Origin: Lobosporangium transversale
Lineage: Eukaryota; Mortierellomycota; Mortierellomycetes; Mortierellales; Mortierellaceae
Direction: 5' to 3'
NCBI RefSeq assembly: GCF_002105155.1
Contig: NW_019029027.1
Coordinates: 1 to 64,000 of the forward strand
DNA length: 64,000 nucleotides
Numbering within the stretch: position 1 is the first letter of the stretch; every line of letters begins with the position of its first letter. The translations under genes were made by a program, and so were the position numbers. The notes beneath the pieces were generated by a model. That model saw only the letters and a program-made list of their open reading frames with translations, was not told where the DNA came from and ran no database searches. This document shows, one piece after another, positions 1,790 to 60,537 of this stretch.

Positions 1790-3438
1790 TTATGAAGTGG
1801 AATTAGAGTAACGAAGTGATTATCGATTGTTTCGATAGTAAGGTGGAATAAGAAGGAGTGGTGATCGAGTATATAAGAGCACTGCTTTTGCTGCGTGTCA
1901 ATGAGCGGGGATCTACCCTCCTTTTATTGCCTTCATGTTTTTATAAAGGGTTATTTTTATTTTATTTATTCTCACTTGTGTCTACAGTAGGTAGAGGCGC
2001 TTTACTCTTAAAGAGATTCGGAACCATTGTTCGTTCTTCCCATAATGCACACATAGTCACGTAATCGAACACATATTCAGAATATAAAGGCTAATTGCTG
2101 TTTGTAAAGCGATCAAGCAGGTGGATATTAAAGTAGTTTCTCTCTAAGACTTTTTCATGATGGCTTGAGGTGTTTGAGTAGGCCGAGGGAGCTTATAATA
2201 ATAGGTTTATCTCCTAGTTCCTGAGTTACATAATATCGCTATAAACTGGTTCCATGATTTATGCCCCTTGAAAGGGCCAAGCCACAGCAAAAGCTTAAAA
2301 GCTCAGGTGCAGGGGTGCCGTTTTCAATGCATGATGCCCTGATATCCTCTGACACTATGAAATACCTTCTCGATAATGCGTAAGCAAGAAGAGCGAGCTT
2401 AGGAGTCGGGATGCGAAGAAGAGAAAGGAGCTGTCCAGACAATGATGGCATTAAATGTGAAGTTTCGTTGACTTGTTTTTATCTTTAAAAATAAAGAAAT
2501 ATCAACCTATTTTTCGTTCTTTGGATCTTTGGATACTAATCGCCGTAAGATTGAACGAAAAAATATGACACTTGAAGACAGCACTGATTGCATAATATAT
2601 ATATCTTTAATGATATTTTAATAATCCCTGCAGGGTGTGCGACTTAAAATTAAAGTTTGACCTCAAGATGTCAGTGAGCACTCATGCACTACACAAAAAC
2701 TAGAGACGAGCCTACTCCAATCGGCCGTTTGCTGGGTTCAATTCTAATGGTTGAAACCCTGTTTGAAGATAGTACTCTCGTATGTTCCATCAATTGCGCT
2801 GTCGTTTGTGATTGCTGCAGCAATGGATGTCCATGAATTCTCCTGGTGAAATGCTTCGTTCTTCAGTTGGATGAAGTTCCGGTTTTCAGTCGTGTAGGAA
2901 GGACCGTTGCTGTCATGGTTAGAGCTTTGCCTATGAATACTGTCAAGACACTCAGCGTGTCTTCTCCTTTGTTCATCATCGTGGATTTTGTTCTTGGATA
3001 CCGACAACGTCATGCGATTGTCGACCATAAATCCTAGATGTTCGATAGTCTACTTCGCCTTTAAGTACGACCTTTTGGCTCTTTTATCTTGAACCTTAGG
3101 GATGCTAATCGTCGAAGCACCATTTTGGGGTTTATCTATGCTAGCTGTTGTGGTGAGATGGCCATTAATATGTCGTCTAGATATACTGATATTCCTATAC
3201 CTTTCCTTTTGGTCTATTTCAGTAGCACTGGGGAGTTTTACCATCTTGAACACGTATGGAACGGGTGAGAAGCCCTTCTGATGAAACTAGACATTATCGA
3301 TATGTAGGGGAGTGTATTAGAACATGCAAAAAAGCATCTTCTAGGTAGAGAGTTGTATCTGTCACTCTTTGCTGAGATCCTTTCAAATAGAGACTCCTCT
3401 TTTAGAGAGGCTTTTGTCAATTATAAGCCTATTATAGG

Positions 3439-3610
3439 TTTCATTTGGTCGCGATACCTTATATTTTATGAATACTTTCGAGTGTATTGGTAGCCAATTA
3501 GCTCACTTGTTGCGAGTATTGTTGCAAGTCCGTCACGTAGTGAGATGCCACCAGAACAATTCAATCATCGTTTTTAGATTAAAAATATAAGGTATCGTGA
3601 CCAAATAAAA
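3439..3610 (+). mobile_element. TIR element (MITE), copy M1 in left arm
   Basis: About 172 bp bounded by near-perfect inverted ends of about 29 bp. The core is ATTTGGTCGCGATACCTTAT at the left, and the right end reads inward as ATTTGGTCACGATACCTTAT. The interior contains GTATTGGTAGCCAATTAG and CCGTCACGTAGTGAGATGCC. The last block recurs almost unchanged at 54729-54748, identifying this as a dispersed family rather than chance symmetry. It has no coding capacity. A clear target duplication was not found. Confidence 0.75.
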
Positions 3611-37855: not shown

Positions 37856-38124
37856 CTGATGCTGATACGATGCTAGGGCCTATATGTAGTCGTAGCTGCC
37901 TTTGACCAAATATATCATCCTGCTTCGTCAACAGCGTGGAGGTACTGCGGTTATTCTTGCTGCACGATATAGCCGCAAACAACATTTGTGGTGTTGTGGG
38001 CTCCAGGCATGTTGCAGTACACATAGGCCTTGCAGTGAGGGCAAAATAGATGCCGCAAGTCGACACTGCCCATGAAGTTGCGACAGACTGGGCACTTCTT
38101 GCTCATATAGTATTGAATACAACA
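37856..38124 (-). pseudogene. Fanzor/TnpB-like C-terminal fragment (zinc ribbon), locus 1
   Basis: Reading down from about 38118, the minus strand gives YYMSKKCPVC, then a second CPHC pair 15 residues on, then AHNTTNVV and, past stops, YLHAVDEAG and YIW. The order [Y-x-T/M-S-x-x-C-P-x-C]...[C-x-x-C]...[A-x-N-x-x-N] is that of the zinc ribbon and last RuvC motif in TnpB and eukaryotic Fanzor nucleases. The usual catalytic Asp (HRD context) is replaced by YCN, and in-frame stops follow, so this is dead. The upstream RuvC parts on this strand are not found adjacent; the next 1.3 kb reads better on the other strand. Confidence 0.5.
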
Positions 38125-38344
38125 TAGCTATGGGACTGAAGTTTGTTCACGAAAAACGAGATGAATCTTGTTCGAAGGGATGGCAGCCCGCAGTTGATGG
38201 GAAACCTGCCAAAGCGTACTGTGAGGGTCTCGTTGGCATCCAATGATTCCCTATCACTCGGGGCAGCTGATCGCAGATCATGCCATACTCACCTTGAATG
38301 GCCTTCTCGGCATCCTCGATACAGCTATAGAGAACGCTCGCTTT

Positions 38345-38641
38345 AGAAGCAGAAGCAACATGAGGCCCCTGTAACTTTCAAGCTGTTTAAATACAGGCCG
38401 TACAAAGCACCAAAACATGACGGCACTGAAACAGTAACTCCATGCCTGCGGCCACGGCCTCCACCGTTACCATCGCCTCCTGTAGACGTAAATCAGTTCA
38501 GCAAAGCATCCGCTCTGCGTAACCTGACCAGTGCTCCTATTCGAATAGATATCTAAATTCAAATGCTATTCGAACCATTCGAACCATTGGCACAATAGGA
38601 AATGATAATATTAAACTTGTGTTTGTAGTGATTTCATAGAT

Positions 38642-38682
<41 letters not shown>

Positions 38683-39412
38683 ATTGGGTGTAATAATACA
38701 ATGACCGTCCTTACGCTACGCGAAACAATGCTTCCTTTCAACAGTGCTCCTATTCGAACCATTTGATACTCGAGCCATTCGATTCATTCGAACCATTTGC
38801 GTCATTCGAATCGATCCAGGATAGGGCTTATTCGAATTCGATCCGTTCGAATCGAACAGGAGCACTGAACCTGACCAAAGAGTATCCAACCGTGACCATG
38901 GATGTTGGAACTTTGCATGCAAAATTCTAAAAGCAATGGAAAGTGTGCGACGAGACCCAAACCGCTTTAAAAGAGGTTAATAGCGCTGCTGCGTATACGG
39001 AAAGAAAGTACCAGTGCCTAGTCGGACCCTTCATCGGGAAACGCGATTAATGGTTCTGACAGGGCATTTCTTGACATGATCTGTAAAAGGGCCTCCATAC
39101 ATGACCAAACTGCACAAGGCAATAGCCCTATAGCAAAGGACGATTAACACAAGGGGAATGAGAGCGATATCAGCATGGCAACCACACAGTTTCTGATGAG
39201 TCTGTTGAGGTTTCTATACACAGGAGATCTCCCGACCATAGCAGGCATAGGAGCCGACGTCTTGTGTTTCATCAAACGATTGAAGGGTTTGGGCCTTCTA
39301 AGGGAAACAGATAGAGGATGTTTGAGAACTAGATCGCAATATCCTGTCCTTAAATTCGACAGTATCACAGTTGGAGTCAGAATTCCGTCGCTATTATTCT
39401 TCAAGAGGTGAT
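38345..39412 (+). pseudogene. Decayed coding segment, possible N-terminal/middle region of the locus 1 element, inverted
   Basis: From about 38347 the plus strand is open as a proline-rich linker (KYRPYKAPKH, PRPPPLPSPP). It leads to RNLT, is broken by the element at 38529-38867, and resumes in the same frame as KEYPTVTMDVGTLHAKF. After frameshifts, a 78-codon frame at 39175-39411 contains LLRFLYTGDLPTIAGIGADV. I associate this style (Pro/Lys linker, then a 'TxDVGTL' helix) with the region before the RuvC core in mucoromycete Fanzor-like proteins, but that is from memory and weak. Orientation is opposite to the flanking fragments. Confidence 0.3.
38529..38867. mobile_element. hAT-like non-autonomous element with 8-bp target duplication
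   Basis: 339 bp with inverted ends CAGTGCTCCT (38529-38538) and AGGAGCACTG (38858-38867). It is flanked by the direct repeat AACCTGAC (38521-38528 and 38868-38875). An 8-bp duplication and ends starting CAGTG fit the hAT superfamily. The interior has many TTCGAA/ATTCGAACCATT units and a 38-nt T run (38644-38681). A second copy of the terminal sequence at 38742 makes 38742-38867 a nested 126-bp unit. Removing the element and one repeat restores an open reading frame across the site. Confidence 0.85.
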
Positions 39413-39819
39413 TGCCCGATACTCCCAACATCCCTATTGATGCTAATCTGTCCGCCGTAGAAGATAAAATAGCACCCATGAGAAAAGTACTCTTAATTCC
39501 ATTAGCTGAGCAGCAGCTGGTTCAAGTCATGTAGAATAACGTCACGGTCCGACATTACCAACCGAAGCTCGCTCGAAACAACCATCCAACTACAAGCTCC
39601 CAGAATGATATAACTAGTGGCTGGCTGTCAATGAAGCCCACTCGGTTCCTTATAACCAGGCTGCCTTCAGACGTTGGCCGAGGCAAACATAGCAACTGCA
39701 GATCAAAGATTACAATGGTTATCAAAAAGACACTAAAGCTCCAGAGCTATGAGTGACGGAACTTCATATCAACAATAGTAAAGCAGACGATTTGATCCCA
39801 AAAACGTATAGCGATGAGT

Positions 39820-40200
39820 ACTACCAAGAGCTACTATAAGGATGGATGAGTTTCATCTCCAACTCCATATGTTCAAGCTCCACAAACAGACGAGATCACT
39901 GCCAGTGCGATGAGGCGGTTGTTGCTGGGCAGCTTGAGGATCGTACAGACATCGTTCCGAACATATTCCATGGCCCCATGATATCCTACCTGCCTTCAGA
40001 CCTTTCCGATGTTGGCATAGGGAAGAGTGTCGCTGTCAGTGGTGAGGGCCACGTCATCGGAGCCGCAGTCCCATGCAATCTGAACGTCCGCTTCTACTTC
40101 TTTATGCACCATGACCCATTCTAGCTGCCGTAAATACCCCACCGGAGAAGTACGTGCTTGAAGAGGAAACCGTAACGTCTTTTGTATGTTTTTTCTCACT
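39820..40200 (-). pseudogene. XPG/FEN-like nuclease fragment, locus 1
   Basis: The 67-codon minus frame at 39996-40199 reads VHKEVEADVQIAWDC then DDVALTTDSDTLPYANIGKV. This is the XPG internal-domain pattern: Glu/Asp in an E-A-D core, then T/G-D-S-D. Past a frame change (39960-39830) come YVRNDVCTIL and ALAVIS. It lies about 1.7 kb upstream of the Fanzor-like zinc ribbon on the same strand, the same order as at 54.9-58.3 kb. Confidence 0.55.
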
Positions 40201-41674
40201 GTAGCATGCTGTTATTTTGTTGTCGACCGCTGTTGAGCAACACAACTCTTAAGGATATCCAGAACCGCAGCAGCAGCAGCAGCTCTTGACTCTTCATGCG
40301 TGTTTCTCTAACACATTGCCACCGCCAAGATAGATCATCTGCCAGACCTTCGAGATGATTGAGGGAAGTCTCTTGCTAACAATTCTATTGGCGATGTCGG
40401 TGGGCATCGTGCTTGCTCATCGGAGTAAAGGGCAGACCCATACTTGCAGATCAACTTGAATTTTGCCAGAAGGGTGAGATGGCACTAATAAGTATATTCC
40501 TAGAGGTTATGCCCTTGCTTCCGCACCACTAATTAGAGGCCCCTTTATTGTCATGGATACTAAACAATGTTTTTTTATGGTGCAAGGCGGAGTCAAATGT
40601 AGGAGGGTTGTAATAAGTAGAGAAAAAAAAATTATACAGTGTACTGTAACAATGCGCTCGAAGACGCTACATATTTCTCAAGGACGAAAGGAAGATGTGT
40701 TTCTAGCTGGCCAAGCTACTCCAGCCTGTCTGCTATGGTTCAGGGCTTTAAAGAAGCTTATTCTGGATAACAAAAAGTTATTCCGGTCGTTTCTGTCTTT
40801 GATTTTCTAAAAGGTGTCTTTGAATGTATACTTCATGTCAAGGAAGGCGTACGACCCGCGGCTTCCTCACAACATGAAAAGAATAGGAAAGTGGGGGCTC
40901 TGGCACTTAATTCAGATGCAGCAAAAGCTATAGTCTGAGAGAACAAAGCTCAAAGAAAGACATGTACAAAAATTAATGGTTTGCCAGCTAAGATTTATAA
41001 GAGCTATTCTATCGATTGCTTTCTCTTCAATTGGTAATCAGCCCGTTTCCTATACTAAGAGAATACTCTGTTGTTATGGGCATAGGAAACACTATCCTTC
41101 CGTCCTGTCCATGCCCTTACCATGACAAACACATACACATATTTGGTGTCAAGAGTCTATGACGGCTTTATCTTCAATATGGCGCCAGCAATGATTTTAA
41201 ATCAGTAAATGTTGACCGCCAGCTGTTTCCTGATATAGTTTTAACCGTTTAAAGCTGAGTAAAGCTCATTAAAGCCGGTTAAAGCCGGTGAAATGGCTAA
41301 AACAGGCGACAGCTGGTCAACCGGTGACGGCGCGGTCAATTTTACTCTTTGATGCCGCCAGTAAAAAAGAAATTCGCTAGTTAAAAACGCCTCCTGACGC
41401 GTTGAACGTAAGTACATTGAGTCTGAGCACGTTGATTTCGATTTAAACCTCCTCTCAGGAGCATTATCTTGTCAGGTTTACTGCACCAGCTGGACGAGCT
41501 GAGAGTTTAAGAGAGAGGAGAAGAGGAAAAGAAAGAAAGAAGAGGCCAACACTCGAGCATTCGAAGTGTGTTAAGATTTTGTGGACAATTCAGCTGTATG
41601 CATGACCCTCTTTGTTTTTGAGCCAAAAAAAAATGCTGCATCCATTGTTACATATTTCATCATAAAAGAGTAGT
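40201..41674. other. Decayed intergenic DNA
   Basis: About 1.5 kb with no supportable gene. An 85-codon frame at 40553-40810 is unrecognised. A cluster of TTAAAGC-type units (GTTAAAGCCG and variants) lies at 41239-41295. It is probably remnant mobile DNA upstream of the 41.7-kb convergent end. Confidence 0.4.
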
Positions 41675-53344: not shown

Positions 53345-54611
53345 ATGCAACAACCACCACAACTCGACAAAGTCAAGCATATCCTCCTTGTCATGTCTGG
53401 AAAAGGCGGTGTAGGTAAATCATCCGTTACCACCCAACTGGCTCTGTCGCTTGTCGCTCGAGGAAAGACGGTGGGTGTGCTTGATATCGATCTTTGTGGA
53501 CCTTCAATCCCTCGCATGCTCGGACTTGATGGCAAGGGTATCCACCAGTCATCAGCAGGGTAATGTGCACTCATGTGGCCTACACCTTCTTTTACTTCAT
53601 ATTGAACCTCATTTTCCCGAGAAATAATAGTCAGAATTAACCATTCAATCCTCGATCTGTCCAGATGGATCCCAGTGTTTGCAGATGAAAAGAAGCAGCT
53701 CTGCTGTATGTCGATTGGATTCATGCTTGAAAACAAGGACGACTCCGTAGTTTGGCGTGGGCCCAAGAAGACAGGTATAATAACAAAAGGAAATTGTGAT
53801 ATCAGTGGAAAATGCTTAACTGCGCAGTACTTTAAGAATCTCATTTCGGTTTTTATCTTCTTTATTTTATAGCCATGATCCGCCAATTTTTAACAGACAC
53901 CTGCTGGGGTGAGCTGGACTACCTGATTGTCGACACGCCGCCAGGTAAAATGGCTGACTGTAACTCGATCGATTAATTCATCGGATGGCGAATCTTTAAT
54001 ACGGCCTATTAAACATCTCCTATTGACCATTTCTGAATCATTGCAAAACTCAAATGCAGGCACTTCGGATGAAAACATTTCGATTGTAGAGCATGTCAAA
54101 GCATATAATCCAGATGGCGTAGTTCTGGTGACAACTCCACAGGCAGTCGCATTGTCGGATGTGCGAAAGCAGGTCAGCTTCTGTCGACAAGTCGGTATCC
54201 CTATCGTCGGTTTGATCGAGAATATGAGTGGATTCATTTGCCCTCACTGCTCTGTAATGCTATTACTCTTGTTACTTAGATTTGCATAGTCATGGAATGC
54301 ACTCATTTGTAAGCATTTATCAGTTTGGCTACTAAAAGTTTGCTAACCAAACCTTGCATTTGCATTACTCTAAATTCACCCCGCCTGATGAAACGATAAT
54401 TCGACAGGAGTGCAATAACTTATTTTCTGCCGGAGGCGGGGAGGCCATGTCGGAAGAATTTGCACTCAATTTTTTAGGTAGAGTGCCAATTGACCCCACC
54501 TTGACAGCAATGGATACCGACCTAGTCCAACAGTTCCCTAAATCTTCCTTGTTTCCTGTATTTGAGAAGATTACAGAGAAAGTGGAAGAATACTCGAGCC
54601 GCCCGGAGTAA
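53345..54611 (+). CDS. CFD1: Cytosolic Fe-S cluster assembly ATPase CFD1/NUBP2
   Basis: A P-loop scaffold ATPase of the cytosolic iron-sulfur assembly (CIA) machinery; with Nbp35 it builds 4Fe-4S clusters for cytosolic and nuclear proteins. Five exons. ATG 53345 gives a short N-terminus, without the four-Cys motif of Nbp35, and then the deviant Walker [10 protein letters not shown] at residues 19-27. [12 protein letters not shown] follows. Exon 3 gives [10 protein letters not shown], and exon 4 ends GFICPHCS, the cluster-binding CxxC. The last exon has [10 protein letters not shown] and the stop at 54609-54611. It is partnered functionally with MMS19 (26.6-31.1 kb). A TIR element lies 38 bp downstream. 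Confidence 0.94.
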
Positions 54612-54649
54612 AATCCTTTTTTTCTGTTCTCTCCCAACTGTATAGTCCG

Positions 54650-54787
54650 TTTCATTTGCTCGCGATTCCTTATATTTTTTGAATACTCTTGAGTGTATTA
54701 GCAGCGACCCGCTTGTTGTTACAAACCCGTTACGTAGTGAGATGCCATCAAACCAATTCGATCGTGGTTTTTAGATTAAAAATATAT
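54650..54787 (+). mobile_element. TIR element (MITE), copy M4, right end lost
   Basis: Starts TTTCATTTGCTCGCGATTCC and follows the palindrome copies through TTGAGTGTATTAGCAGC, CCGTTACGTAGTGAGATGCC and TTTTTAGATTAAAAATATA. It then stops abruptly at a run of G (54787-54794) where the right terminal repeat should be. It is a diverged, 3'-truncated copy lying between the CFD1 stop and the Fanzor-like pseudogene. Confidence 0.75.
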
Positions 54788-54894
54788 GGGGGGGTCTACA
54801 TATAGCCTTTATAGTCCTCCCCATTAAAAAACATCATCTAGACCAAGGATATTGTAAAAAGAACAAGAAATTCATTAGGCATAGAAATAAATAA

Positions 54895-57150
54895 ATTAAT
54901 TACAATTTCGACAGTACTTGGATCGATAATGAACATTCTCCAATAAAGCATCACAGTGAGGCCATGGACACTTGGCAGATGTGTAATGTTCGTAACAACC
55001 TGCAATGGGGTAGTCTAAAGGTTTTGCCCAATTTAATACCCATGTTAAAAAAGACCCAAAATTAGATGTCATTGATCAGAAGATGTTTTTTTCCTTTTCA
55101 ACAAGCTTTTTCGTCAATATCCCATGCTTCGATGCTTACCTTGAATGATCTATGTCCAATACAGACCACCACATTCGTATTGGCACCTCTTCTTCCTCCA
55201 TTACTTCCGCCTGCAAGCTTTAGAATTGCGTTGATCACATAATCAATGCATCCATTCTGTGCTTTTCTACTGTCCCAGATATTTCGAACAAACCAACTAT
55301 CATTATAGAAATCGACAAGCGCTCTATATATAGTCCCCTATTATTGCCACTGACTTCACTGACTCCAGCTCCACTGCTACTATCGGCTCCAACTCCAGTA
55401 CTAGTGAAATTACCTCCGGTACTTGATGAAGCTTGATTTGGTGGCGAGCTCATATAAGAGGAATACTGTGTTACAAAAGACCTTGAGAATAGTGGAATGT
55501 TGCTTTCAACTACTGTAATTCCTCTTCCAAGCTTCCGCCTTTCTAGCTCTCCCCAGAACTTCTTGGATGATTTGTAAAAATACGCTCTAGAATTCCGAAG
55601 GATCTTGCATTCGTTAGGCTTTCTTGGATCCAATCTCGCAACTGGCATCGAATGCCTCTCGCTTGGATCGATCCCAATAATAACGGTATTTCCGGGGGGA
55701 GTGCACGCTGTCTGGTGTCATATTTAACTTCTACATTGTCGAGAAGACGGCAACCAGTTGATCTCGTGCCGAGGGTTGGGGCTCACTGGAGACAGCGGAT
55801 TTGTACTCAATATACCTCCTTCAGCTGCTTCTTCTCTGTCACCATCTAAGAATGGTCCATCAACTTCCAGCAAGTCAATATCGTTGACACCCAGCAAGGT
55901 ATCATCATCCTCATCTTCGCCATCGTCTCCGTCTCATTGCCATCGCCTGCGCCATGACTAGGTCCCCGCTGAGCACTTGAAGTAGTCTGGGCTGCCCGAT
56001 ATGTTTAAATTTTCGAAGGTTGAGCAGCTTGTGATTCTCTACCTCTTTTTTGCTTTGGTGCATCATAAGCAAGAAGAGTAAGGATAAGGCTATTTGTAAA
56101 GAATGATGTTCGTAGCTTCCTCCTAGGGCCAGCCCTTCATCCTTTCAGGGAAAACAGTTCTTATAACAATATTCCTTTTTGATTAAGGACCTTGATTTCT
56201 GCGGCTCCTTGATACCCTCCCTTAATCCCAGCACCAGGACTATTTCCTCTCGTACTGTGGAATTAAACCATAATATGTCCAGAAGGCAGTCATCAGTTAA
56301 GTATGAGGAAGCGGATCTAGGGAAATCCAGATATTTTTGGCAGTAGCATTTTGCTCAAAAAAGGATTGGGTGGGACTCCTCCCATCGCCTGGGGAATCAT
56401 TTCTATGAATGTATTATAAGACAACTTCAAAATATTATATTCACCTGTGCATCTCGATAACGAGATTTAGTGTTGCTTGGCCATTTGGGTTGATTTACTG
56501 ATCGCAAAATTGGGATAGATCTTGTTTAAAGGACCAAATTCTATTTTTGTATAAAGTATCCGTATGCTTTGAGCTGGGACGGCTCGACTACATTTTCTTC
56601 GCCTTTTTTCTTCACATTCTTATATACTTGGATAATGGAATCATCACCCCATAATACAGCAACCGTAAATAAAGTCCCTGCTACCAAGAACTTCATCCAG
56701 GAATTGTGGGGGATCAGCTGGATTAGGTGGCCCGGTGGTAAGTAGGTTATCAATCCACAAGTCGTAGGTCCAGGAAGCTCGAACTCGTGCCTCATTCAAC
56801 ATTTTGATAAAGGGGCTGAATGAGCCCTTGGGTTGTAGCAGCAAGTGGCTTGGGATTGAGATTGGGATCGAAATTGGAGTTCAGCTTGGCACCTATACAC
56901 GTCTTAAGCGTACCCAGAGCTAATGCAACAGTAAGGTCGATTCTTGGCAGTAGCTTTCATCTTCCTAGGTTTATCAGTCTTTCTGATGTACTTGACCTTC
57001 CTTTTGTTCTTCTTTTTCTTCTTTTTCTCCTTTGCCCTCTCTTTTTTCTCATCTTTCTTTTTTTTTTTTTTTGGACTTTCTTTGATGACCGGAGCTGACA
57101 GAACGGTCGTGTTGTTTACAGTTGATCGGGTCATATTTTTTGGGAGAGAG
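54895..57150 (-). pseudogene. Fanzor-like RNA-guided nuclease, decayed, locus 2
   Basis: Read on the minus strand. A Lys-rich linker (56950-57130) leads to IDLTVALALGTLKTC (near 56870-56945) and an acidic segment (DDTLLGVNDIDLLEVDG, about 55840-55900). The RuvC-I-like VIIGIDPSERHS follows at about 55660-55700 with ARLDPRKPNECKILRNSRAY after it. Then SWFVRNIWDSRKAQ (about 55245-55290), VVVCIGHRSF (about 55150-55180), and a zinc ribbon YEHYTSAKCP...CDALLENV...CRNC (54900-55005). This order (D-P-[GS]-E, helical region, E-x-Y-T-S-x-x-CP, Cys ribbon) fits Fanzor/TnpB nucleases. Frameshifts (near 55715 and 55300), stops and loss of the last Asp motif show it is dead. Confidence in the family is moderate because residues were matched by eye. 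Confidence 0.55.
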
Positions 57151-57301
57151 TCCCCTTTTCTCAGTAGGGAAAATAGGTCAATAGCGGTTCGGCTCTATGC
57201 GTTTAGGCTTAAAGTATCTAATTATGAAACGACAGTGTCAAGGGTTAGATGACTTTTTTTTACGTATATGCTTTGTAAAATGTTCATTTGAAGCAGCTTA
57301 C

Positions 57302-58321
57302 CTGAGTCGAAGTTGATTATTTTTGATTTAGTACCTAGCGGATACCGCGCCCTCATTCCGCCATAGTAATGAAGGAAATTTTCAGCGGTTGGTTGTTGCA
57401 AAAACTGGGTTTGAGCCCCACCAAAGAAAACATTGATTGAATGGTCAAATCGGCCTTCTGAAGGAGTTCCACGGCTAAGGGCATGGACCTCATGAACATA
57501 TGATACCGTCAAATTTTCGACATTGGTGTCAGTGAGCGCTGAGATAAACTCAGCGTTTGTGGTAAGAGCAAAGGTAGGGATATTTAGGGTGTAATCGTTA
57601 TCGTATATAACGCCATAGGGCAGGAGTTGAATGTCGCTTGAAAACTCGAGGGCTTGCAGGGCCCCTTGTTTCTCATAGAGCGCATAAATGTAATGGCGAT
57701 GAGGGATTGGACGAAAAACTCATTGTACAGAAGGATAGATGAGAATGCCAGAGTCTCCAGGTACAGCGATACTGGCTGATGTGCATTTGGCGGCAATATA
57801 TACATCAGCATCTTTGCTACAGTGGCAGATTACAAAGTTATTGTACCGGCCAAATGACGCTGTGAGTTCCCTCTTCCCGCTATGACTAAATGTGAAGAGA
57901 TATCGAAGATTCTTTTTAATGACAATCATATGGCTTCGAGATTCCCATTTCCTTTCAGTGGACTTGGTTTTCATGTTGGCTATGAGTGTATCGAGTTTTC
58001 CATCAGCTGTTGTACGCTTAGTACCTTAGCCCCTATAAGCGTGCGCTTTTTCATTGCAGCGAAGCTCACCAATGTATATCGTTACTGTGGCAAGAGGGCC
58101 AAAGATCTTTAGAATGATACTATTCATAACATGGCCGCAAGCAGTGAAAGAACTCTGCCGGTTGAATTTCCTTGGGATGATATTGTGTATATCGCTGTGC
58201 AGAGAACCAAGCAGATCCAACTCAAAAAATGAATCGGGTCAGCAGCAAGCTTATGTACATCAATCTCCTTTGGTGGCAGACCTCTCCTTGAAAGCTATGA
58301 ATAGAACCCTTTTATACCCAT
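57302..58321 (-). pseudogene. XPG/FEN-like structure-specific nuclease, decayed, directly upstream of Fanzor-like sequence
   Basis: The start at CAT 58319-58321 gives MGIKGF, the canonical XPG/FEN N-terminus. RGLPPKEIDVHKLAADPIHF follows, and after a frame slip (about 58230) LDLLGSLHSDIHNI. The internal domain reads KDADVYIAAKC, then VPGDSGILIYPSV, where the usual GDSD has become GDSG. Then VFRPIPHRHYIYALY, DNDYTLNIPTFALTTNAEFI and VSYVHEV follow to a GTAAG donor at 57301. Stops TAG (about 58297), TAA (about 58029) and TGA (57720-57722, a possible CGA to TGA change) break it. The long conserved runs suggest fairly recent death. It could be the N-terminal half of one polypeptide with the Fanzor-like part. 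Confidence 0.6.
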
Positions 58322-58973
58322 CTAGGGAAAGCATATATAAAACAATGCAAGCAATGCTAGCTTAAGCAGCTATAGACTGAAGTTGAAGTTGTTAGGGTAG
58401 ACATGATTTATGTGAGGGGGTGAGAGATAAATGTCGCTATATCAGTATGAAATGAGAGAGAGAGGCGGCGTATTTGAAGGTGTATGAAAAAGAGTGAAAC
58501 AAAAGGCTGTTGAATTTACCACAAATTTGCTTTCATTGTGGAGCAGCAATGCAACTCGAAACAAAAGGATCATATTTAAAAAACAACAAGGGAGAAACAA
58601 ATTGTTTTTTTTATTTCGAGCTGTTTACAGCTCTTCATATGCCAAATCCAGCCTTCGCCATGACTATCAACAACAAATGAAAAAACGGTAAAAGCTGCTA
58701 GATGCGCAAAGAAGTGGGGGTAAGTGAATGGTAGACATAGCGCATTGTGATTATATGGCTTGATATATGCTGATTTTTCTGTCGATTGATTTTTTCTTTC
58801 TTACCATACAATAGACGATTGTTTTCTGCTTAGAGAACTGTGATCTGAGCTGGCCATGAATTGATGAAAGCTAAATAGGCAACTATTTCCCGTTTTACGG
58901 TCCAAGGGGTAAACAAAGTGATTAAGGCCAAAGAAGTACCAAGACCTTTGCCTTGCGTCACCGGCTCGTGTTT

Positions 58974-59007
<34 letters not shown>

Positions 59008-59087
59008 TTTGAAACGCATAGACGGATTGGGTTCATGAACAATTTAGAAGAAACCCATCAATTATATATAATATATTAGCACTACCA

Positions 59088-59122
<35 letters not shown>

Positions 59123-59809
59123 GCGTACGAAATTTCAATTTCTTAATAGCCATGTTTCTCAACACCATGGCACAAAAATACTCTACGCCTTTAAGTGTCC
59201 AATCAATTTAACTATGCACGTGTATCAATGGTCGGAGAAACCCATCATTGAAGCCTGATTATATCATGGAGGCCATGGACGATGAAAGGATTCACCATTG
59301 GATTCTGGTCATTTTTGAACAGACATAAAACACATTTGTGATATCTCATGACCATAATCTTACTTAGCACACAGCCACGAATCCCTACGACGCGTAGGCT
59401 CGCCATCAGCCTGTGTGGCTTATGTGTGGTTTATGTGTGTTGCAAATGCTCACTAACAGGCTGGGTCCAAACTCGAGATACCGAAAGAACCTTTGTTGAG
59501 TCCAGGAGGAGGAGAGACATCAAGCCGGCAGCAACAATAGGATTTGGTCTACTACAAATATAACCAGGTCCTGAAAGGCCTTTCTTTTAAAAATTGTGAG
59601 TATTGGTTTGACAATACTTTTTTGGGTTAATTTATTTTGATGGACTGTAACAGAGCAGATCTGGTGGATATTTCGTCTCGTGACATGTATAATTCGTAGA
59701 TTGAGCGACATTTGTATTACTTTTGGAATGGTTTGATCTATCAGTCCTGATTCCTGGAACACCCATTACCTCTTATCCCTACAGGTTCATTACATCTTCA
59801 TATACCGCA
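58322..59809. other. Intergenic, two long homopolymer runs
   Basis: 1.5 kb without a supportable gene. It holds a T run at about 58975-59002 and an A run at about 59091-59120, inverted relative to each other and 90 bp apart. The 3' part (59.5-59.8 kb) presumably contains the SmD3 promoter. Possibly the 5' end of the element encoding the XPG-like gene lies here, but no terminal repeat was found. Confidence 0.4.
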
Positions 59810-60537
59810 ATGTCTATCGGTGTCCCCATCAAACTGCTTCATGAGGCTCAGGGTCATATTATTACTATCGAGCTGAAGACTGGATCTGTCTACCGCGGCA
59901 CTCTCTTTGAGGGTAAATACGGGAGGAATAACGAATCATGAAATGCATCCTTTGACCACGGCTATTATGAGGCGATAATCCCATTTTTAACCTCTTAATT
60001 CTCTATCACTCCACTGTTGTTCTTTTTTGACTAAATAATCTTAAATAGCTGAGGACAATATGAATATTCAGCTCAAAGACATTACTATGACTGCAAGGGA
60101 TGGGCGTATGACACAGCTGGATCAAGTCTACATTCGTGGATCCCATATTCGCTTCTTCATTGTACCAGACATGCTCAAGAATGCGCCCATGTTCAAGCAA
60201 CAAGGTGCAGCATCAATGAAGGGCAAGGGTATTGGACTGGGCAGAGGCAAGGCGACAGTAGCAAGAGCACAAGGCAGGTCATTTTTAACCACTCACCAAT
60301 ACTACATATTATACTCGTCATACCATACGACATGACACTGGGCTATTTAAGTTAGCTTTTTACATCTTGCGAGTATGACGGGCTCCGATCAAGGCTACTA
60401 ATTTTTTTTTTTTTGTTTTTTTTTTTTCGCTTTTACTTTTGTGTCCCTTAGCTCGAGGAGGTGGAAGGGGAGGTAGAGGAGGCTTTGGTCGTGGTGACAG
60501 AGGCGACTTCCGTGGACGCGGTCGTGGTAGAGATTAA
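59810..60537 (+). CDS. SMD3: Small nuclear ribonucleoprotein SmD3
   Basis: Core Sm-ring protein of spliceosomal U snRNPs. Exon 1 (59810-59912) reads [20 protein letters not shown] and [10 protein letters not shown]. Exon 2 (60049-60273) reads [20 protein letters not shown] and [20 protein letters not shown], which are the Sm1 and Sm2 motifs. Exon 3 (60452-60537) adds an Arg-Gly tail ([20 protein letters not shown]), the usual site of symmetric dimethylarginine. Frame requires intron 2 to begin GC (CAAG/GCAGGT at 60274) and end TTAG. The nearby GT would place a stop in the tail. Total about 137 residues, normal for SmD3. Confidence 0.95.

Follow-up and report, generated by a model that had tools for sequence, protein, structure and literature searches.

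Introduction

Fanzors, the eukaryotic relatives of CRISPR nucleases, cut DNA under the guidance of RNA and are encoded in the genomes of eukaryotes; to our knowledge, what they do for the transposons that carry them is unsettled. Here we examine a transposon copy on the minus strand of a 64,000-nucleotide stretch of the Lobosporangium transversale genome (contig NW_019029027.1, positions 1 to 64,000; hereafter the window), in which sequence resembling an XPG/FEN-type nuclease precedes sequence resembling a Fanzor. The Fanzor-like part and its relatives resemble the Fanzor1 nucleases, such as SpuFz1 of Spizellomyces punctatus, PpFz1 of Parasitella and GtFz1, in a RuvC domain with a DPG motif in most members, an alternative glutamate, an RD motif and residence in a eukaryotic transposon (PMC10711439, PMC3627910). 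The DPG motif together with a glutamate six residues before the zinc ribbon makes up the Fanzor signature (PMC10711439), and the longer motif D-X(125,275)-[TS][TS]-X-X-[C4]-X(5,50)-RD comes from PMC3627910. Most Fanzor1 proteins are 600–700 amino acids (aa) long (PMC11423790), whereas the fusions described here reach about 1135–1291 aa in complete models. They differ from Fanzor1 in an added N-terminal FEN/XPG nuclease of about 340 aa and, in some members, in a DLG motif and an altered zinc ribbon. The added part resembles FEN1, EXO1 and XPG (the Rad2 family) in its N-terminal MG, its seven metal-binding acids and its fold, although we take one of these acids to be an aspartate that replaces a glutamate of the Rad2 family. 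Unlike those enzymes, the fusion is transposon-encoded, multi-copy and joined to an RNA-guided nuclease, and its identity to solved FEN/EXO1/XPG structures is 12–18%.

At the level of the transposon, the elements described here can be compared with the Mucorales Fanzor elements with MuDR-like repeats (ROr-4, PBl-3 and MCi-4; PMC3627910), which are likewise fungal, bounded by terminal inverted repeats and equipped with a Fanzor but no MuDR transposase of their own. The Mucorales elements are reported to make 9-bp duplications (PMC3627910), whereas ours end in TATAG..CTATA. Neither ‘XPG’ nor ‘flap’ occurs in the main text of that paper, one of three principal Fanzor papers for which this holds, and both words are likewise absent from the main text of the Cell 2024 structure paper. 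The sole phrase that we saw in print pairing both names is ‘Fanzor flap endonuclease homologs (Fendons)’, applied to two viral contigs with no domain architecture described there (PMC11071296); ‘Fendons’ may be related to the fusion or may simply name Fanzor-like or FEN-like viral proteins. In the available portions of PMC12719977, ‘Fanzor’ and ‘flap endonuclease’ come together only through the reference list, and those of PMC7286691 treat XPG on R-loops alongside a mention of TnpB, with no fusion. A full-text literature search, outside which lay the Sci Adv 2023 Fanzor survey and all supplements, returned no paper combining ‘Fanzor’ with ‘XPG’. In the literature searched, no Fanzor carrying an extra nuclease for processing DNA ends is clearly described.

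Results

We found that a fungal transposon family, represented in the window by a decayed copy, is predicted to encode a single large protein that begins with a FEN1/EXO1/XPG-type nuclease, its metal-binding acids complete, fused to a Fanzor-type (TnpB-related) RuvC nuclease behind it. Read on the minus strand from 58321 to 54902, the window copy presents an XPG-like start, an acidic core, a Lys-rich stretch, RuvC-I and a zinc ribbon, spread over three reading frames. A preliminary description made from the letters alone had named an MGIKGF start, an NDY motif, a GIDPSE motif and a TYTS-type zinc ribbon on one strand; these are indeed present at 58321, 57599, 55675 and ~54,991–54,902 (the YTS zinc ribbon EHYTSAKCPWPHC...CRNC), but partly in decayed forms, GIDPSE standing for GIDPGE. 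Its assignment of the two halves to XPG/FEN-like and Fanzor-like domains was right: a single annotated protein of Podila, P0006, matched both by tblastn (XPG, 58085–57378, E 7.7e-22; RuvC and zinc ribbon, 55717–54902, E 7.4e-23), which also places a RuvC/Fanzor signal at 54.9–56 kb. Benniella P0003 likewise matched both halves (58238–57393, E 2.7e-35; within 55708–55143, E 5.1e-26), and control searches of one shuffled and one reversed window gave zero matches at E ≤ 1e-3. Chance motifs are ruled out, since one foreign protein matches both halves at E < 1e-21 and the shuffled and reversed windows are empty. The window copy has no continuously open frame, being broken by many stops and frameshifts, and it lacks the last RuvC motif (RD) because the 3′ end of the coding sequence is deleted. 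A 137-aa open reading frame (ORF) within it gave by itself a Pfam row at chance level (E 0.13) because it falls between RuvC-I and the zinc ribbon. Judged by its sequence, this segment is a dead copy (pseudogene) of a fungal transposon whose better-kept relatives encode the XPG-Fanzor fusion.

Such relatives are present elsewhere in the L. transversale genome. The DNA at 54850–58400 has 67 matches in 42.7 Mb, the window itself counted, and ten other copies are near-full-length (3.5–3.8 kb, 78–79% identity). Successive long open stretches were seen in the four copies inspected, and the exon joints are GT...AG, with introns of 65–104 bases in the ten spliced copies. Intron phases fit in L038, L039 and L044, and in L038 exons 1–3 read stop-free into exon 4 to give a protein of 1209 aa. 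Downstream of the exon 1–2 joint are YRP(V/I)F and HPT motifs that are conserved; as L038 has no Met ahead of them, the start of any separate Fanzor gene would have to fall beyond conserved coding sequence. Of 17 copies examined, 14 have an open exon 1, the exon that encodes the XPG part; it is not open in the window copy, the old relic L056 and L047. Ten copies differ at 32 variable sites in this exon, with a ratio of nonsynonymous to synonymous polymorphism (pN/pS) of 0.37; the in-frame substitution ratio (dN/dS) between L038 and L056, a copy and an old relic, is 0.50. In L047 (C58, ~143877–145205), an insert of ~1.3 kb containing a DDE_3 transposase match splits the XPG exon, where a Tc1/mariner-like element seems to have landed.

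Fused proteins also occur in other genera. A search with residues 1–345 of the L038 protein, in which long candidates were allowed, returned six proteins, including Benniella P0003 (1160 aa), Podila verticillata P0006 (1260 aa, with PF07282) and Mortierella alpina P0007 (1135 aa, with PF07282). Among the matches listed by a profile search were two further M. alpina proteins, P0008 (1216 aa) and P0010 (1291 aa), both with PF07282, and at least three cut models; these counts are lower bounds, as P0003 and P0006 are in the profile's own alignment yet not among the matches listed. Both halves are kept in P0006, P0007 and P0010, while the models of P0003, P0004, P0009, P0011 and P0012 are cut short or have internal deletions. 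The lineage concerned is Mortierellomycota in the current NCBI scheme, not Mucoromycota as first framed. Among viral contigs, 198 stretches with the pattern included no relatives. The preliminary description had left the choice between one fused protein and a two-gene unit; because of the phase-consistent introns of L038, L039 and L044 and the single fused gene models in three other genera, the sequences support a fused protein, and the two-gene option is disfavoured.

Both nucleases retain their active-site acids in different genera, at ~20–50% identity. In the XPG half, seven metal-binding acids (D33, D85, E170, D172, D195, D197 and D247 in P0006 numbering) are invariant in six of six aligned sequences, an alignment that leaves out P0008 and P0009, which depart. 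The closest folds and profiles to this half are DNA flap nucleases and exonucleases, and it has the sequence profile and the fold of the FEN/XPG (Rad2) family. The structure model, whose mean predicted local distance difference test (pLDDT) score is 53, is good over most of residues 1–330 and parts of RuvC.

In the Fanzor half, the PF07282 cut-off of 26.3 bits is passed by L038 (30.4), P0006 (33.2) and P0007 (38.0); among cut models, P0001, which is from L. transversale, and P0004 score 13.8 and 14.2 bits and P0003 has no match. Invariant in five of five aligned sequences are the Asp of RuvC-I, GxGxF, TS, shared Cys residues, RD and the alternative Glu (E219), which stands before TS and six residues ahead of the zinc ribbon (e.g. 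HEYYTSAKC). The long Fanzor motif is found in the aligned relatives, the window copy lacking its RD. DPG is present in L038, P0006 and P0010, and DLG in P0007 and a second L. transversale family (two of the five aligned). In the M. alpina fusions P0007, P0008 and P0010, CPR(G/D/S)H stands at the first zinc pair in place of two Cys, which departs from C4. RuvC profile matches included TnpB-like L79 (3.1e-7), TnpB/Cas12f (~2e-5) and SpuFz1 (2.2e-5 over positions 46–215), and two of 17 rows up to E 0.1 were esterases, clearly by chance. Foldseek placed Cas12j at E 2e-4 with other Cas12 chains below it, in rows that carry no matched model ranges, and the VIA list, filled by the XPG half, had zero Cas12 or Fanzor rows.

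The architecture recurs beyond the family of the window copy. In the second family, on C13 (L006 and L071), XPG_I and zinc-ribbon matches lie ~3 kb apart. The XPG piece of this family has 94 genome matches, and many of these are followed, ~2.4 kb downstream, by zinc ribbons that probably belong to a third XPG-Fanzor family, known by coordinates only. A same-strand XPG match lies within 6 kb upstream of 38 of the 69 zinc-ribbon matches and downstream of none, with one each in the two opposite-strand arrangements; conversely, 41 of the 94 XPG matches have a zinc ribbon downstream. The parts thus keep one order in relatives, and do not behave as the unrelated neighbours that the preliminary description had allowed for. 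By our reading, 16 of 31 zinc ribbons with no XPG match adjoin truncated copies of the first family, and 15 others remain. For a candidate XPG-free sister Fanzor, L072 (C62), no XPG was found in the 2.7 kb upstream, its expected place falling at the locus edge. In trees of five sequences, the M. alpina pair agrees between XPG and RuvC, and the second family shifts (local supports 0.94 and 0.99).

Element ends were defined from two copies, A and B, which share 6.44 kb at 97% between unrelated flanks. The ends, TATAGCCCGTTCCATT and AATGGGACGGACTATA, form an imperfect inverted repeat, and an inner inverted repeat spans 99 bases at 83%. Left ends read TATAG in 10 of 11 copies and TACAG in L045; right ends, located in 9 of 11, are all CTATA with differing flanks, while L045 ends in CTATC, L049 in CTACA, and L041 is without the usual end. 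Directly ahead of the left end stands a G (mostly AG) in all 11 copies (L073–L081, A and B), while the right flank shows no comparable constraint; the G could mark an asymmetric insertion preference or be a signature like a transposon-associated motif (TAM). In copies A and B, the 2 kb ahead of the gene contain no ORF of at least 100 aa. The TATA termini and a TA-like duplication suggest that a DDE transposase works in trans, and DDE_3 and DDE_1 transposases have 154 and 44 matches genome-wide. On the opposite strand, DDE_1 fragments lie no more than 8 kb 5′ of an XPG match (C82:22235, C101:103058) or a zinc-ribbon match (C39:533287), and on C86 and C73 DDE_1 is on the same strand; these fragments, suggestive only, are perhaps the autonomous partner of another XPG-Fanzor family.

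Applied to the window, these ends extend the element. The preliminary description had set limits of 54895–58321, and the coding parts fall within them, but the decayed XPG-Fanzor transposon copy runs from ~54,641 to ~59,649 on the minus strand, limits taken from the ends of other copies, of which 59,649 is the less certain. At 54641 the + strand reads TATAG, the left-end type of copies A and B, and the other end matches the terminal repeat at 59480–59637. The left terminal repeat (59480–59649) is an inverted copy of the right-end sequence, 81% identical over 59480–59637 with its last bases placed by eye. Next, all on the minus strand, come the XPG/FEN-like nuclease part, equivalent to exon 1 elsewhere and holding stops and a frameshift (57342–58321; L038 residues 1–331, 73–83% identity), and the start of exon 2 towards the Lys-rich linker (57091–57219; residues 341–383, 70%). 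The Lys-rich, helical middle, comprising exon 2, intron 2 and the start of exon 3, follows at 56014–56990 (residues 422–761 in two frames, 32–36% over stretches that include the intron). The Fanzor half consists of an acidic stretch with RuvC-I (55430–55867; residues 814–963, 65%), the middle of the RuvC domain (55137–55334; residues 1009–1074, 82%), and the alternative-glutamate motif with the zinc ribbon, the final RD being deleted (54902–55132; residues 1080–1134, 60%). The right element end (54641–54900, minus strand) contains an inner terminal repeat at 54810–54900 and an outer repeat at 54641–54724.

A second, more decayed XPG-Fanzor relic with identical order lies on the minus strand of the window at 37945–40223, with its XPG core (EADV...TTDSD) at ~40.2–39.9 kb and its zinc ribbon (YYMSKKCPVCRNF...FCPHC) at ~38.1–37.9 kb; by eye it is nearest to the second family. 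An inverted pair at 3438–3511 and 4273–4346 matches the left end of the 6.4 kb transposon at 85% identity and is perhaps a non-autonomous element of ~0.9 kb with the same ends.

Discussion

The conserved active sites fit a function in which DNA is cut and its ends are then processed. In our proposal, the Fanzor half would be loaded with a guide RNA from the 3′ end of the element and would cut empty target sites. The FEN/EXO1-like half, kept at the R-loop and the break, would remove a 5′ flap or overhang or resect the 5′ strand, and the break would therefore be repaired by copying the element-bearing chromosome. The element would thereby home or be retained, and a DDE transposase in trans would carry it to new sites. 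SpuFz1, a fungal Fanzor, leaves 5′ overhangs (PMC10432273), which a FEN/EXO1-type enzyme could trim or extend into resection, favouring the element-bearing template. As purified human XPG was reported in older work to cut the 3′ flank of an R-loop (PMC7286691), the R-loop might itself be a further substrate of the XPG half. Taken as a whole, with a fused protein, guided cutting, 5′ processing, homing or retention and a transposase in trans, we give this proposal slightly less than even confidence. The version in which RNA-guided ‘cut and resect’ homing is self-contained, with a guide finding the empty site, RuvC cutting it and the fused EXO1/FEN-like part resecting the 5′ strand and forcing homologous copying, we hold only tentatively.

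Several observations weigh against this proposal. Pfam gives the fusions a weak XPG call or none, and at E ≤ 10 it has no XPG model for L038. P0008 is without part of the XPG active site and core, and in P0009 the first acidic position of the EAD motif is a Lys. L038 is alone among the ten spliced copies in being stop-free before exon 4, and its C-terminal tail after the RD motif is in a different frame from that of other copies; the remaining nine hold 1–59 stops before exon 4, often after changes in the length of A-runs. No upstream XPG was detected for 31 of 69 zinc-ribbon matches, and no downstream zinc ribbon for 53 of 94 XPG matches. The XPG tree places the second family with L038 and the RuvC tree places it with M. 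alpina, which is either noise of five divergent sequences or domain exchange between families. The conserved non-coding RNA that the preliminary description had expected 3′ of the unit was not demonstrated: the fold of the 3′ end has a z of −1.27 against shuffles, 24 of 200 of which were equally good, and Rfam gave no match at gathering scores in 54000–60000.

The XPG-like part could instead be a structure-specific DNA-binding or nicking module for excision or integration of the transposon, for example at branched ends, with the Fanzor as accessory. That the fusion is the only large product of copies A and B speaks for such a role, but the form of the ends would point to a DDE enzyme in trans, of which the genome has abundant candidates, and we consider this unlikely. 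Somewhat less likely still is a role in processing guide RNA rather than DNA, such as trimming of the transcript 5′ end by PIN-like RNase use of the FEN fold. XPG/FEN and PIN domains have a common fold, and a domain adjoining an RNA-guided nuclease would meet its transcript; against this, TnpB-type nucleases are reported to process their own RNA, the nearest folds and profiles are those of enzymes acting on DNA, and all seven acids are kept. It is improbable that the fusion is a decaying passenger that has no present function and owes its spread to an unrelated transposase: stops occur in nine of the ten spliced copies and the window copy is dead, yet the acids of both nucleases persist across genera, pN/pS is below 1, and a second family, read at sequence level, and probably a third have the same architecture. 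Most improbable is that XPG and Fanzor are neighbouring, separately expressed genes of one transposon and that the fused models are annotation artefacts, since, although fungal gene models can merge genes and the XPG ORF is the best-preserved part with a stop right behind the donor site, the intron phases fit in three copies, L038 offers no Met before the exon 2 motifs, and models from four genera join both parts, one of these models spanning the joint that we observed.

The fusion of a Fanzor with a DNA end-processing nuclease would provide a natural precedent for the nuclease-resection fusions of genome editing. That such a natural fusion has been kept over several genera and families points to a step after the cut in what Fanzors do.
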